From a virus, in IMG/VR virus record IMGVR_UViG_3300008116_000011, positions 62,001-126,000 of that record: a stretch of DNA of 64,000 nucleotides; one strand, given 5' to 3'. Numbering within the stretch: position 1 is the stretch's first letter; every line of letters starts with the position of its first letter. The notes beneath the pieces were generated by a model, which saw nothing but the letters and a program-made list of their open reading frames with translations, ran no database searches and was not told where the DNA came from. Below, piece after piece: positions 14,737 through 61,303 of the stretch. The position numbers and the translations under genes were made by a program.

Positions 14737-15648
14737 TTATTTGATTTTTAAGATTTGAGATATAAACGCCATAAAGTTAATTTCTTTATCAGCGATAGTA
14801 TTATTTTGCCATAGATATTGAGCTGAATGTATTGCTACGTCTGCAGGTTGGGTTGTGTATTCGCTTACACGTTCATATAAGCCTGTAAATAAAGGTACGT
14901 AATCATTTACATCTGCATCTGCTACTGTTTGTCTAATATCAGTCCAAGCTGTTTTACTCTTTAATTTTAAATGTTTTATAACATCATTTAAAACGCCCTC
15001 AACATTAGCTACTAATGCTCCTGGATTTAGAGTATTATTGTCATCTATTGATTGTTGAGATGCATTAATAATTTTTCTAATGTCAGGGTAGTATGTTTTA
15101 ACTATAGCAGCAATATTAGGTAATTCATATTTAACACCCTCTTGATCTAATATCCAGGCTAAATGTTTTGCAACATCACCTTTAGCAGGTGGTTCAATAT
15201 GAAATGTTTGACATCTACTTTTAAGCGGATCAATTATACGTTCAGCATAGTTAGCTGTAAGTATAAATCGTGTTTTTGCAGAATAAGTTTCCATTACATT
15301 ACGTAATGCTGCTTGTGCTTGAGCAGTAATATAATCGGCTTCATCAAGTATTACTACTTTAAGTGGATTAAAACTACTCACAGAGGCAAAATCTACAATT
15401 TTATCTCTAATAGTATCAATTCCTCTTTCATCAGAAGCGTTAATGTACATTATATCACACTTGATATTTTTTGTAATTAACTTAGCTAATGTTGTTTTAC
15501 CTGTACCCGGCTTTCCAAATAGTAATAGATGAGGAATATCATTTGTAGTGATACATTTAGAAATGAAGGCTTTTACACCCTCATTTCCAACGTATGTATC
15601 TAGATTTTGACTACGATATTTCTCAACCCATAGCGAGTTGTTCGTCAT
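14737..15648 (-). CDS. 44: Clamp loader large subunit, AAA+ ATPase (T4 gp44/RFC-like)
   Basis: A 303-aa RFC/gp44-type AAA+ ATPase that opens the sliding clamp and loads it on primer-template DNA. Walker A is LLFGKPGTGKTTLAKL near residue 42. Walker B is VVILDEADYIT near residue 98, with DEAD as in eukaryotic and phage RFC. The SRC arginine-finger motif is in LKSRCQTFHI near residue 167. The length matches gp44. Its start lies inside the last 26 bases of groEL, an unusually long overlap that implies translational coupling. Confidence 0.93.
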   Translation of the reverse strand: MTNNSLWVEKYRSQNLDTYVGNEGVKAFISKCITTNDIPHLLLFGKPGTGKTTLAKLITKNIKCDIMYINASDERGIDTIRDKIVDFASVSSFNPLKVVILDEADYITAQAQAALRNVMETYSAKTRFILTANYAERIIDPLKSRCQTFHIEPPAKGDVAKHLAWILDQEGVKYELPNIAAIVKTYYPDIRKIINASQQSIDDNNTLNPGALVANVEGVLNDVIKHLKLKSKTAWTDIRQTVADADVNDYVPLFTGLYERVSEYTTQPADVAIHSAQYLWQNNTIADKEINFMAFISQILKIK

Positions 15649-17254
15649 TTTTATCTTTTTTAGGTTCGTTATAGATTACACATTCAGTTAACAATACAGT
15701 ACCTGCTACTGAAACGGCATTTTCAAGTGCTGTACGAGCTACTTTCATAGGATCGATAATACCTGCTTCAAACATATCTTTTATTGTTTCTGCTTTAATG
15801 TCGTATCCAAATGTACGGCCATTAGTTGGGTTTTCCTCTCTAGACTTCCTAAGAGCAAAGATAATTTCCTCTTTATTTTCAACACCCGCATTATCAAGAA
15901 TCTTAAGGAATGGAGCAGCACAAGCAATATATGCTATTCTCTTTCCTAAATTAAAATCTTCTCCATCTTCTTTCTTAAGTACGATATTTTCTCTTGCTTC
16001 TAGTAAAGCAATACCACCACCTGGGAGTAATCCTTCTTCAAGTGCTGCTTTAGTTGCTTGTAGAGCATCATCAATACGATCTTTCTTTTCTTTAATTTCA
16101 GTTTCTGTAGCTCCACCAATATTAATTACAGCAACTCCACCTACTAATTTTCCAAGACGCTCTTGTAAATGTTCTTTTTCGAACGCTGATTGTGCTTTTG
16201 CAATTTGTTCTTTTAGATCAGCAACACGATTTTGAATATCACCTTCTGCTCCACCACCATCTACAATTGTAGTTGTATCTTTAGTTACTGTTACTACTCT
16301 TGCTTTACCGAACCAATCTGAGTTGAAGCGCTCTAATTTCATTCCTTTCTCAGGTGAAATTACAGTACCACCAGTTACAGTTGCAATATCTTCAAGTACT
16401 GCTAAACGACGATCTCCAAAATCAGGTGCTTTAACAGCAACTGCTTTTAACATACCTCTCATTTTATTTACAATGAGTGTAGATAGTGCTTCACCATCAA
16501 TATCTTCAGCAATGATTAAAAGTGAACTATCTGTTTGTGAAGTACCCTCAAGTACTGGAAGTAGTTCTTTAACTGATGTTAATCGTCCGTTATAGATTAA
16601 AATCAATGGGTCTTTTAGAGCAGCAGACATTGTACTATTATCTGTTGTAAAATACATTGATTTATATCCCCTATCAAATTGAATACCTTCTACTGTTTCA
16701 AGTGATGTTTCACCTGTTTTACTTTCTTCAACAGTAACTACACCATCCATTCCTACCATATTCATGGCTTCAGCTACTAATGCTCCAATTTCTTCGTCAT
16801 TGTTAGCTGAGATAGTAGCTACTTGCTTAATTTGGTCTTCAGAATTAATTTCACGTTTAATTTCTTCTAAACCTTTAACTACTTCTTTAGCAGCCGCTTC
16901 AATACCTTTCTTTACTAATACTACGTTAGTATTAGGATTGATACTATGAAATGCTTTTTGAATTAATGAATTAGAAAGTACAGTTGATGTTGTTGTACCA
17001 TCACCTGCTTTATCTGCTGTTTTAATAGATGCTTGCTTAATCATTTGTGCACCTATATTTTCAATTGGATCTTCAAAATCCTTAAGTGTTTTTGCTACTG
17101 TAACACCATCTTTAGTACTGCGTACAGTTCCGTAGTCATCAATGAATACTACGTTGCGACCATAAGGTCCGAGTGTTGAGCTAACAGCATCAGCAACTTG
17201 CTTGATACCACTAGCTAATTTTTCTTTTGCTTCTTGATTGAATGCTGTCTTCAT
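15623..17254 (-). CDS. groL: Chaperonin GroEL
   Basis: A 543-aa, full-length GroEL. It has [11 protein letters not shown] near residue 28, the ATP-binding [13 protein letters not shown] near residue 84 (catalytic Asp in GDGTTT), [15 protein letters not shown] with the second ATPase Asp, and [10 protein letters not shown]. It lacks the Gly-Gly-Met tail of bacterial GroEL and ends DEQLAMG. T4 encodes only a cochaperonin, so a complete phage GroEL is notable. It follows GroES after a 43-aa gene and overlaps the clamp-loader gene. It probably folds phage capsid or replication proteins. Confidence 0.95.
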
Positions 17255-41647: not shown

Positions 41648-41683
41648 AACAATTTTTGTTTGTTTAACAATTTATTTACAATG

Positions 41684-41716
41684 TAAATATATAGACAGTA
41701 AATTGGGTTTCCAAAA
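41684..41716 (-). promoter_or_regulatory. Two-part Bacteroidota-like promoter upstream of the HTH gene
   Basis: Sense TTTTGG (41716-41711), 19 bases, then TATATTTA (41691-41684), 36 bases before the ATG at 41647. The -33 segment TTTTGGAAACCCAAT matches those of the gp32 and 58-aa genes. Confidence 0.68.
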
Positions 41717-41719
41717 GAG

Positions 41720-41791
41720 TTGTTGTACCAAGATTCGAACTTAGTCTTTATGTTCCGGAAACATACGTGCTATCCCTTACACTATACAACA
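41720..41791 (-). tRNA. tRNA-Arg (anticodon CCG)
   Basis: Folds as a full cloverleaf of 72 bases: acceptor TGTTGTA/TACAACA, D stem GTGT/GCAC with A20 (an arginine identity base), anticodon arm TATGT-TTCCGGA-ACATA giving anticodon CCG with U33, and T arm CTAAG-TTCGAAT-CTTGG. Discriminator A; CCA is not encoded. A CGG-reading tRNA is odd in so AT-rich a genome. It lies directly after a terminator. Confidence 0.88.
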
Positions 41792-41798
41792 AAGGAAT

Positions 41799-41828
41799 AA
41801 AAAAAGGGACTGATTAGGTCCCTTTTTA
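41799..41828 (-). terminator. Strong intrinsic terminator inside the RNA island
   Basis: AAAAAGGGAC (41801-41810) pairs with GTCCCTTTTT (41818-41827) across a 7-base loop. The sense strand continues with TTTTTTT. It is symmetric and could stop both strands. The tRNA-Arg lies immediately after it. Confidence 0.85.
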
Positions 41829-41830
41829 TT

Positions 41831-41924
41831 GAGTACACCTTTCGGTGGTTTGAACAACTCGCAAAGGGTTCTTTGTATAAGCTCAAACCAGGTTCTTTGT
41901 ATAAGCTCAAACCACGGAGTACTT
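41831..41924 (-). ncRNA. Structured RNA with a tandem 24-bp repeat
   Basis: In the sense RNA, GUGGUUUGA (41915-41907) pairs perfectly with UCAAACCAC (41853-41845), AGUAC pairs with GUACU outside it, and CACCGAAAGGUG forms a GNRA-capped hairpin that competes with part of the stem. A perfect 24-bp tandem repeat (41867-41890 and 41891-41914) lies inside, and either copy can form the main stem. No ORF and no cloverleaf fit. A phage-specific stable RNA is likely. Confidence 0.55.
41867..41914. repeat. Perfect tandem duplication, 2 x 24 bp
   Basis: The unit GGTTCTTTGTATAAGCTCAA plus ACCA occurs twice with no gap and no mismatch (41867-41890, 41891-41914). It forms the core of the structured RNA between the aberrant tRNA and the terminator. 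Confidence 0.95.
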
Positions 41925-41938
41925 AAGTTTCCGAAGCT

Positions 41939-42013
41939 TGGAGCCACCAGTCAGGCTTGATCTGACACCTCTCCCGGTCGGAGTGGGAGGCTTCTACATT
42001 GAACTATGGCGGC
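41939..42013 (-). tRNA. Aberrant tRNA, Gly-like body with an enlarged anticodon loop
   Basis: Acceptor GCCGCCA/TGGTGGC, discriminator T, encoded CCA, the Gly-like TAGTTCAATG D-arm start, and T arm GTCAG-ATCAAGC-CTGAC mark a tRNA. The anticodon arm is unusual: CTCCC/GGGAG closes a 9-base loop (ACTCCGACC). Read as a 9-base loop it centres on TCC (Gly). If an A-C pair is allowed, a 7-base loop has U33 and anticodon CCG (Arg). The D loop is also short. Confidence 0.65.
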
Positions 42014-42035
42014 GAGTATCTTTTAAAGGATACTC
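42014..42035 (-). other. RNA-processing-type hairpin between RNA genes
   Basis: GAGTATC (42014-42020) and GATACTC (42029-42035) form a 7-bp stem with an 8-base loop, directly at the 5' side of the aberrant tRNA. It is placed as a spacer or RNase target between two RNA species. Confidence 0.6.
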
Positions 42036-42121
42036 AAACCTGCCTTGCGACAGTTTATTCGAGTTGTCTGCTCTAGATAGCTATAAAAACCGATTTGGTC
42101 GGTAAGGATTGATCTATCTAG
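42036..42121 (-). ncRNA. Structured non-tRNA RNA
   Basis: Two elements in one transcript. CTAGATAG (42073-42080) pairs with CTATCTAG (42114-42121), enclosing ACCGA/TCGGT (42089-42103). Further on, AAACTGTC-GCAA-GGCAGGTTT forms a bulged stem with a GNRA tetraloop (42036-42055). The 5' end lies about 30 bases after a TATATTTA box. It does not fold as a tRNA. It resembles the small stable RNAs of T4-type tRNA regions in position only. Confidence 0.5.
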
Positions 42122-42149
42122 TCCCTTTGTTGTTTGCTTAGTGCGTATA

Positions 42150-42157
42150 TAAATATA
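42150..42157 (-). promoter_or_regulatory. TATATTTA box upstream of the RNA island
   Basis: Sense reading is TATATATTTATATACGC, 28 bases before the first structured RNA. A TTTTGG lies only 9 bases upstream (42172-42167) rather than 19; it falls in the coding end of the membrane-protein gene and may be chance. Confidence 0.45.
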
Positions 42158-42162
42158 TAATA

Positions 42163-59326: not shown

Positions 59327-61303
59327 TTATGGTACTATTTTTCCTTCAGGAATTTCTTTATTTCCATTTGCCGTAAATATATCAGTAAGCCATTTATTTT
59401 CCTTCTCTACTCTATCAACAGTAAATGCGGGGAGATTAGCCCAATCCCCTGGAATATTGCTAAATTTATTTGGAAATTTGCGAGGTAAGAAATCATGCAC
59501 AGGAGTAAATGTCATTTGCACAGTCATTACATGAGGTAATTCATACATATTAACACCAGCACCTCCTTCAGGATCATCTATTGCTATTTCCCAAGGTGAC
59601 TTATCATCTATAGTATAAGTTAAATTTTTAATAATTCCTGGTTGGCGATACATGTAATTACCCATAGTGAGTTTCATATATGGTCCTCTCATATTTATGC
59701 CATCATAATCGGGCATTGTGTTTGAGTATAAATAATTTAACTTTTGCCACATCGGTTTCATTTCAGCTTCAGACATTGCTGCTACTTGAAATGTAAATGA
59801 AACATTTCTTTCAAATCCTTTATAGATATAAAAGGGTTCTCCTCTACCTACATAATTCACAGTATTCCAAGTTGGATTAGGATTATCAGATATACTTGTT
59901 AAATAAGATCTAAATATCATCCATGTACTAAGTCCTGGATTAGTTCCATCAACAGCCTCTATTCTAAATTTAATAAGGTCTCTTACGGTAAAGCTCTTTC
60001 CATTTACATTTATTTTGGTATTTGGAGGAGCACCACTTATATATAAAGGGGTAAGGTTAATTTGATCTTGTCTAGGATATTCTGAGTCTGTAGGATTATA
60101 TCCTAATCGTCTTTCAATATTGAATTGTTCTAATGGTAAACCCTTATCAGCATATGACCCTGTTGTAGGTTTATATTTTGAAAATCCTTTAAATGTAAAT
60201 GTTATAGGCCTATCTAAATAGCCTTGGCGGCTTATAGTGCCAGGACCTACTATATCATTATTTGCTTTAACTATATTAGCTGTTCCTATAGCAAAACTTC
60301 CGGTTTGTTGGTTAATTGCATTTATTAAATTATTATAAAGTTTACCTGCCTCTGGGTAATTTATAGCATTTTGATCAATCTGGGAGGGTTTATGTGTGAG
60401 AGAACCAGTAGTTATATTATTATACTCTAAAATTTGATCTCGATTCCAATCAAAATACTCTTCAGAAACACCTTGTGCTAAAAAATAATCAATATCAGGA
60501 ATAGGACGTCTAAATTTAGAAGCCATATTAGAAAGTGATACAACACGAGCTGTACCTGTGTCTACAAGATTAGCAGTAAACCCAGGAAGGGAAGCATCAA
60601 TAGGTAAAACTCTACGTCCACCACCATATTGATTATATTGTTGATTTCCTAATGTATTATAATATCTTGGTATAGTAGTTCGTCCTATACCATCAATAGA
60701 TCCAGGACCGCTAACATATTGATTAATATTAACAGTAGTATTATTACCTGCTGCTACTAATTTATCTTTTAATAATACTAATCTATTATTAGCTCCATTA
60801 GAACCACGAGCATCATTAGCAACTACTACATTTTTATATAATTGACCTTCATTTAATACCGGTAATAAACCATGTCTAGTAATGTGACCACCAAACGCTG
60901 TAATTGGTACTTGAGCTAATGTATTGATACCTAAATTATAGATACGAGTAGGACCTATTTTACCTAATAGTTGTCCTAAAGCATCTGTTCTAGTTTCAAG
61001 TTGAGGATTTGATAATTGTAATCCTACTTGTTTTGCTATAAATAAAGGTCCACGAGGTGGATCAACAAGAAATTTTCCAATACGGAGAGTATCACGAGCA
61101 GAAGCTAGTGTAGCACCAGCAAAACCACCTCTGATTAAACCATTATCTGAGTTCCATATAGTTGTAGATGGAACTTGTTGTTGGTATGGTGGTGGTATTT
61201 TTGTAGTAATATATGGCTCACCACTACTACCTCCTCCTGGTTGATCATTTCCGTATTTAAGACCTCTTAATGCAGTTAATCCAGCTTGTGTAATTATTGG
61301 CAT
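59327..61303 (-). CDS. Large unknown tail/baseplate protein
   Basis: A 658-aa protein with no family I recognise. It is rich in Gly, Asn, Pro and Thr, with extended beta-like segments. The last 250 residues look folded (FRSYLTSISDNPNPTWNTVN, then MAAMSEAEMKPMWQKLNYLY-like helix and LTMGNYMYRQPGIIKNLTYT), and resemble a tail-tube-initiator or wedge domain. Context, between tape measure and baseplate genes, supports a structural call. It is adjacent by one base to a small Pro/Gly-rich gene. Confidence 0.68.
   Translation of the reverse strand: MPIITQAGLTALRGLKYGNDQPGGGSSGEPYITTKIPPPYQQQVPSTTIWNSDNGLIRGGFAGATLASARDTLRIGKFLVDPPRGPLFIAKQVGLQLSNPQLETRTDALGQLLGKIGPTRIYNLGINTLAQVPITAFGGHITRHGLLPVLNEGQLYKNVVVANDARGSNGANNRLVLLKDKLVAAGNNTTVNINQYVSGPGSIDGIGRTTIPRYYNTLGNQQYNQYGGGRRVLPIDASLPGFTANLVDTGTARVVSLSNMASKFRRPIPDIDYFLAQGVSEEYFDWNRDQILEYNNITTGSLTHKPSQIDQNAINYPEAGKLYNNLINAINQQTGSFAIGTANIVKANNDIVGPGTISRQGYLDRPITFTFKGFSKYKPTTGSYADKGLPLEQFNIERRLGYNPTDSEYPRQDQINLTPLYISGAPPNTKINVNGKSFTVRDLIKFRIEAVDGTNPGLSTWMIFRSYLTSISDNPNPTWNTVNYVGRGEPFYIYKGFERNVSFTFQVAAMSEAEMKPMWQKLNYLYSNTMPDYDGINMRGPYMKLTMGNYMYRQPGIIKNLTYTIDDKSPWEIAIDDPEGGAGVNMYELPHVMTVQMTFTPVHDFLPRKFPNKFSNIPGDWANLPAFTVDRVEKENKWLTDIFTANGNKEIPEGKIVP

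Follow-up and report, generated by a model that had tools for sequence, protein, structure and literature searches.

Stable non-tRNA RNAs without an assigned role are a long-known feature of phage tRNA clusters, examples being RNAs C and D in the tRNA cluster of T4, a phage unrelated to the one studied here. The present locus is like these two in placing a putatively stable non-tRNA RNA within a phage tRNA cluster. ROOL and GOLLD are ornate phage-encoded RNAs of unknown function that lie near tRNA genes (PMC12286853), and in the non-coding RNA YrlA a tRNA-like module is held by other stems (PMC8394870). That phage tRNAs escape host anticodon nucleases is established (PARIS, T5; PMC11455837). 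Here we describe a phage locus that, in our assessment, is very likely to harbour a structured non-coding RNA gene with a tRNA-derived domain.

The window, that is, the whole stretch of 64,000 bases analysed, comprises bases 62001–126000 of the viral record IMGVR_UViG_3300008116_000011, a 174,437-base entry of a viral-contig collection and possibly an incomplete genome. Its DNA is similar to that of Flavobacterium and Cellulophaga phages, and the virus probably infects Bacteroidetes-type bacteria. Genes show a minus-strand bias (209 of 217 ORFs) and about 6% of the genome is non-coding. The window encodes QueC, a PTPS-domain (QueD-like) protein, a DNA polymerase, a ribonucleotide reductase and a GroEL chaperonin (15623–17254, minus strand; phrog_5725, E = 1.3e-149), together with a QueE-like protein that was assigned by position and our own reading of the sequence, without a Pfam hit. 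A giant repetitive T/P/S-rich protein of at least 2,247 amino acids (TITPSVTVTPS... repeats) is encoded at L210:13255–19998 (minus strand), with its reading frame open at the locus end towards L211. The sole long ORF-free stretch well inside the window, 41648–42162, has a GC content of 0.38 versus 0.32 genome-wide.

On the minus strand, from 42157 to 41719, this stretch carries a promoter, a structured module A, a tRNA-like domain, a second structured module B, a terminator and a tRNA-Arg(CCG) (Table 1). A sequence-only reading of the window had listed a promoter box, a folded RNA with a GNRA loop, a hairpin next to a tRNA, an aberrant tRNA, a second folded RNA with a repeat, a strong terminator and a normal tRNA, and we found every one of these parts on that strand. 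The GNRA loop, C(GCAA)G, sits at 42048–42045 in the folded RNA 42121–42040. Module B starts with a CUUCGGAAAC linker ahead of its main hairpin, and both copies of the repeat (41867–41890 and 41891–41914) fall inside the fold 41831–41924. Against dinucleotide shuffles, fold z-scores were −3.1 for 42036–42121 and −3.8 for 41831–41924, reaching −4.3 for both longer spans, 42014–42130 (117 nt) and 41800–41941 (142 nt). Helices of at least 9 bp were likewise in excess, with 5 in the window RNA versus 0.6 in shuffles, and 3 versus 1.0 in the relative L002 described below.

Table 1. Parts of the RNA island in 5′ to 3′ order along the minus strand; positions are those of the window.
Feature	Position	Strand	Evidence and comparison with L002
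Promoter −10/−7-like box TATATTTATATAC	42145–42157	−	Motif copies in the record; one mismatch in L002
Module A hairpin H1, CUAGAUAG/CUAUCUAG (8 bp) with inner ACCGA/UCGGU (5 bp)	42073–42121	−	Folding; all pairs invariant in both phages
GACAACUCG, 5′ strand of a possible long-range helix with 41853–41861	42060–42068	−	9 bp, one G-U, invariant
Module A hairpin CUGUC(GCAA)GGCAG, GNRA loop	42040–42053	−	Folding; invariant in both phages
Hairpin H3, GAGUAUC/GAUACUC, flush with the 5′ end of the tRNA-like domain	42014–42035	−	7 bp invariant; loop differs
tRNA-like domain, 9-nt anticodon loop ACUCCGACC, U73	41942–42013	−	Rfam tRNA
Module B hairpin GUGGUUUG/CAAACCAC, apical CAAAG(AACC)CUUUG	41845–41915	−	Folding; two one-sided changes, pairing kept throughout
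Perfect tandem duplication (2 × 24 bp) of the 5′ arm of the module B hairpin	41867–41914	−	Single copy in L002
CGAGUUGUU, 3′ strand of the possible long-range helix	41853–41861	−	Folding, helix counts, two-phage alignment
Intrinsic terminator AAAAAGGGAC/GUCCCUUUUU with T run	41801–41827	−	AAAGGGGC/GCCCCUUU with T run in L002
Canonical tRNA-Arg(CCG), without encoded CCA	41719–41791	−	ARAGORN; Rfam 56.4 bits; also in L002

The only homologue found, L002 (IMG/VR contig 3300017917_002041), carries the complete island at the corresponding position, with the same genes flanking it. Identity between the two RNA cores is 93.4% over 257 aligned bases, with 96.5% in module A, 88.6% in the tRNA-like domain and 94.4% in module B outside the duplicated repeat. 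By comparison, the adjacent tRNA-Arg is 79.5% identical, and the six flanking genes are 70.6–79.8% identical at the nucleotide level and 37–60% at 4-fold degenerate sites. Thus, the non-tRNA parts are more constrained than either the real tRNA or the flanking proteins. All proposed pairs survive the 17 substitutions, whereas 4.7 broken pairs would be expected (P = 0.0015; under random placement of the same changes, 0.15% of trials left every pair intact). Eight of the substitutions fall in the tRNA-like domain, where two double compensatory pairs (anticodon stem C-G to U-A, T stem A-U to G-C) are accompanied by two one-sided changes in the acceptor stem and two changes in the T-loop. Module A has four, all outside the proposed helices, and module B has two one-sided consistent changes. 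The terminator stem is kept in L002 with a changed sequence; this is our own reading, as the automatic alignment misregisters the terminator. Compensatory changes in relatives are therefore present in the tRNA-like domain and, on that reading, in the terminator, but not in modules A and B, which are too invariant to covary; the comparison covers two sequences. The GAAA hairpin near 41848–41837 is not conserved in L002. Since the perfect repeat emphasized by the earlier reading is single there, it is an incidental, lineage-specific duplication of one hairpin arm.

Direct repeats and several inverted repeats within a 0.5-kb non-coding gap could also point to a function at the DNA level, for example as an iteron-bearing origin of replication or recombination site. 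We consider this highly improbable: the substitutions preserve RNA pairing, including that of the tRNA stems, the conserved part is bracketed by a promoter and a terminator, and the would-be iteron is single in L002.

The promoter box proves to be a motif that recurs before phage genes. The 174 kb record holds 16 copies of its 10-mer TATATTTATA, every one of them on the minus strand. Thirteen copies are intergenic, ten of them 12–29 nt upstream of ORFs; the remaining three head the island, the phage tmRNA and a third structured RNA. With the promoter at 42157–42145 and the terminator ending at 41801, the transcription unit would be about 335 nt long. Judged from the DNA itself, the gene architecture is clear, and on the strength of conservation, unbroken pairs, compensatory changes in the tRNA-like stems and the shared promoter motif, the island is very probably a dedicated ncRNA gene. 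The same strong purifying selection, compensatory changes, promoter motif and terminator bear out the earlier description of an RNA island outside known families.

Where that description placed a tRNA between two distinct stable RNAs, the tRNA-like domain and modules A and B instead look like one transcript. We infer that the island is transcribed and that it folds as a single RNA. Modules A and B may be joined by a long-range helix between GACAACUCG and CGAGUUGUU, predicted by folding as 9 bp with one G-U and identical in both phages. Its predicted probability per pair is 0.74–1.0 in the window RNA. In L002 it falls to about 0.07, as GUGGUUUG/CAAACCAC, the module B hairpin that crosses it, outcompetes it there. 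Because both the long-range helix and the hairpin are conserved, a pseudoknot or a switch is possible.

Mutually exclusive local and long-range helices of this kind would also suit a cis-acting leader or attenuator, in which the structured RNA would respond to a ligand or tRNA and thereby govern terminator read-through into tRNA-Arg. A terminator does separate the structured RNA from tRNA-Arg, the gap of about 10 nt before the latter holds no promoter for it, and in the window the 5′ end AAAGGGACU can form 9 bp with the 3′ arm of the terminator. In L002, however, the terminator has changed while the 5′ strand has not, and a mismatch breaks the antiterminator pairing; moreover, the 70-aa downstream gene comes with a promoter-like sequence of its own, TTTTGGAAACCC...TATATTTA. 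These two observations weaken the attenuator, and no T-box or riboswitch family matches the island, so we rate it as rather unlikely.

Searches for families and further homologues were largely negative. At gathering and relaxed Rfam thresholds, no family but tRNA reached its gathering score and the weak matches were at chance level; there was no covariance match in the island to ROOL, GOLLD, T-box or riboswitch families, nor to tmRNA (RF00023). Group I introns, self-cleaving ribozymes, CRISPR repeat mimics and type III antitoxin repeats were rejected, as Rfam gave no match and the repeat is single in L002. Covariance model R1 recovered only L002 among 48 related phage records (an 11.9-bit match in L125 was inspected and dismissed) and nothing, under stricter filters, in 400 bacterial genomes from the family to which a Flavobacteriaceae metagenome-assembled genome belongs. 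Searches with blastn of 50,697 phages and 72,556 plasmids returned nothing credible, and exact or degenerate DNA patterns found the L002 contig alone, or nothing, in viral contigs. Four more matches to a gapped hairpin pattern were chance-like, without tRNA or model support. The 119-aa neighbour gene has a match in L002 only, and the homologues of the 70-aa neighbour in other phages lie beside no such island.

The tRNA-like domain scores 35.0 bits in the window and 31.2 bits in L002 against the Rfam tRNA model (RF00005; gathering cut-off 29) and is called by ARAGORN in neither. It resembles a tRNA in its cloverleaf stems, its D-arm UAGUUCAAUG-UAGAA, its acceptor stem and U73, and it differs in having a 9-nt rather than a 7-nt anticodon loop, a D-loop (AAUGUA) that has lost G18G19, one of the two Gs being gone, and, in place of UUCRA, a variable, non-canonical T-loop (AUCAAGC in the window, CUCACGC in L002). 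It also differs in its 5′-flush hairpin, in its embedding between more conserved modules and in its CCA, which is encoded in the window, as had been noted for this aberrant tRNA, but reads CAG in L002; like the repeat, the CCA is thus lineage-specific and incidental. Among 60 tRNAs from related loci, the nearest is tRNA-Thr(UGU) of the phage itself, chiefly by its acceptor stem, and overall similarity is low.

An ordinary tRNA operon, with a working but divergent or decaying tRNA between processing or stabilizing leader and trailer sequences A and B, would account for the score above the cut-off in both phages, the encoded CCA in the window copy and the real tRNA next to it; elsewhere in this phage, tRNA genes lie in other structured contexts. 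Yet spacers are not expected to be more conserved (94–96%) than a genuine tRNA-Arg (79.5%), and the domain lacks the D-loop GG and the standard T-loop residues, has nine bases in its anticodon loop and, in L002, is not followed by CCA. The T-loop drifts while the T stem co-varies, and compensatory changes are hard to square with simple decay. We hold the operon to be rather unlikely as well, although the tRNA-like domain may still become charged or be put to use.

The general plan of a closing stem and a tRNA-like module recalls YrlA (PMC8394870), and the setting in a phage near tRNAs recalls ROOL and GOLLD (PMC12286853). A Y-RNA-like scaffold, with the tRNA-like module tethered to a ring protein or nuclease of the Ro60/PNPase type, or self-assembly as in GOLLD/ROOL, is nonetheless improbable. 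The phage record contains no Ro60/TROVE domain (PF05731), the search for which gave a match in a control genome, and hence no gene for a Ro60/Rsr partner, which a host might still supply; the only Rfam match is to tRNA. The canonical D- and T-loop residues, modified by DusA and TruB in YrlA, are absent from the island in both phages, and at about 335 nt its RNA exceeds YrlA (90–150 nt), is about half the size of GOLLD and is much shorter than ROOL/GOLLD RNAs, with no match to either Rfam family. The island RNA is like tmRNA in being a predicted stable RNA made of a tRNA-like part and hairpins, and the phage's true tmRNA stands behind the same promoter motif; the island's tRNA-like domain, by contrast, is complete, local and equipped with an anticodon arm, and the island does not match RF00023.

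Instead, we favour tRNA mimicry as the mode of action of the island RNA, a reading that, judged from sequence features, is credible while falling a little short of probable. The gene would specify a single compact RNA of about 335 nt in which hairpins lead into a domain derived from a real tRNA and on into more hairpins, with modules A and B possibly linked by a long-range helix or pseudoknot. The tRNA-like domain would retain the acceptor stem, the D-arm and an invariant anticodon loop centred on CCG, whereas the contacts between D-loop and T-loop have gone, as has the encoded CCA in one phage. Compensated stems, lost folding loops and a fixed anticodon loop together suggest recognition by a tRNA-binding factor rather than translation. 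Candidates for this factor would be aminoacyl-tRNA synthetases, tRNA-processing enzymes and a host nuclease that targets tRNA-Arg, and the adjoining tRNA-Arg(CCG) might supply or replace the genuine tRNA.

The nine-base loop ACUCCGACC is invariant and has at its centre CCG, which is also the anticodon of the tRNA-Arg beside it, provided that the loop is taken as 9 nt or as closed by a non-standard A.C pair. CGG is the rarest of the 61 sense codons in the phage (17 of 54,671), whereas the codons for the phage tRNA-Leu(UAA) and tRNA-Thr(UGU) rank 5 and 10. As these two tRNAs read common codons and CGG is the rarest, the pair of CCG triplets does not look like codon supply. Despite this rarity, tRNA-Arg(CCG) is retained in both phages (window 41719–41791, minus strand; L002:5693–5765), and its anticodon loop in L002, UCCCGGU, lacks U33.

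We infer a binding partner and a decoy role from these features. T5 tRNA-Lys, acting against PARIS, offers a likeness in the class of mechanism proposed, a tRNA-type phage RNA set against host attack on tRNA (PMC11455837), with the difference that it is a working tRNA whereas the island's tRNA-like domain is without decoding features. A decoy specific to a tRNA-Arg nuclease is quite unlikely in our estimation. We are equally doubtful of the fullest version, namely a new class of pseudoknotted phage RNA that would rigidly mimic the tRNA-Arg(CCG) anticodon arm and combine, in one locus, a decoy for a host anticodon nuclease directed at tRNA-Arg with a replacement tRNA-Arg(CCG).

Other structured RNAs occur in this phage and in others. 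The true tmRNA lies at L212:19337–19726 (minus strand; 59337–59726 of the phage's own genome; RF00023, 56.8 bits) behind the same promoter motif, and the tag predicted by ARAGORN, DEMSTMTFDDLMAFVGADEATFA, is without the usual ALAA-type end. At L212:17690–18065 (minus strand), a GC-rich structured RNA of about 350 nt has the promoter TATATTTATATAC and a terminator; it belongs to no Rfam family and has no blastn match in phages. A tRNA-like gene at L212:17306–17455 (minus strand) has the acceptor GUCAGG/CCUGAC, a canonical T-arm and a long insertion in the anticodon region, and at L212:18548–18650 (minus strand) an apparently structured leader with the hairpin ACGCAAGAGCGU lies directly 5′ of tRNA-Thr, in a setting that resembles module A. 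Upstream of the homologue of the 70-aa gene, L110, L111 and L112 carry tRNA-like genes with UUCUAUG anticodon loops and enlarged D-domains; these CUA-anticodon genes are possibly amber suppressors. L109 and L113 carry tRNA-Leu-like genes with inserts.

Besides the island, the phage carries a tmRNA and two or more further unusual structured RNAs. The island itself is clearly organized as a gene, its tRNA-like core is conserved, and the tRNA beside it shares the anticodon for the rarest codon; together, these features would make RNA mimicry of tRNA a concrete, testable idea in place of an 'unknown RNA'.
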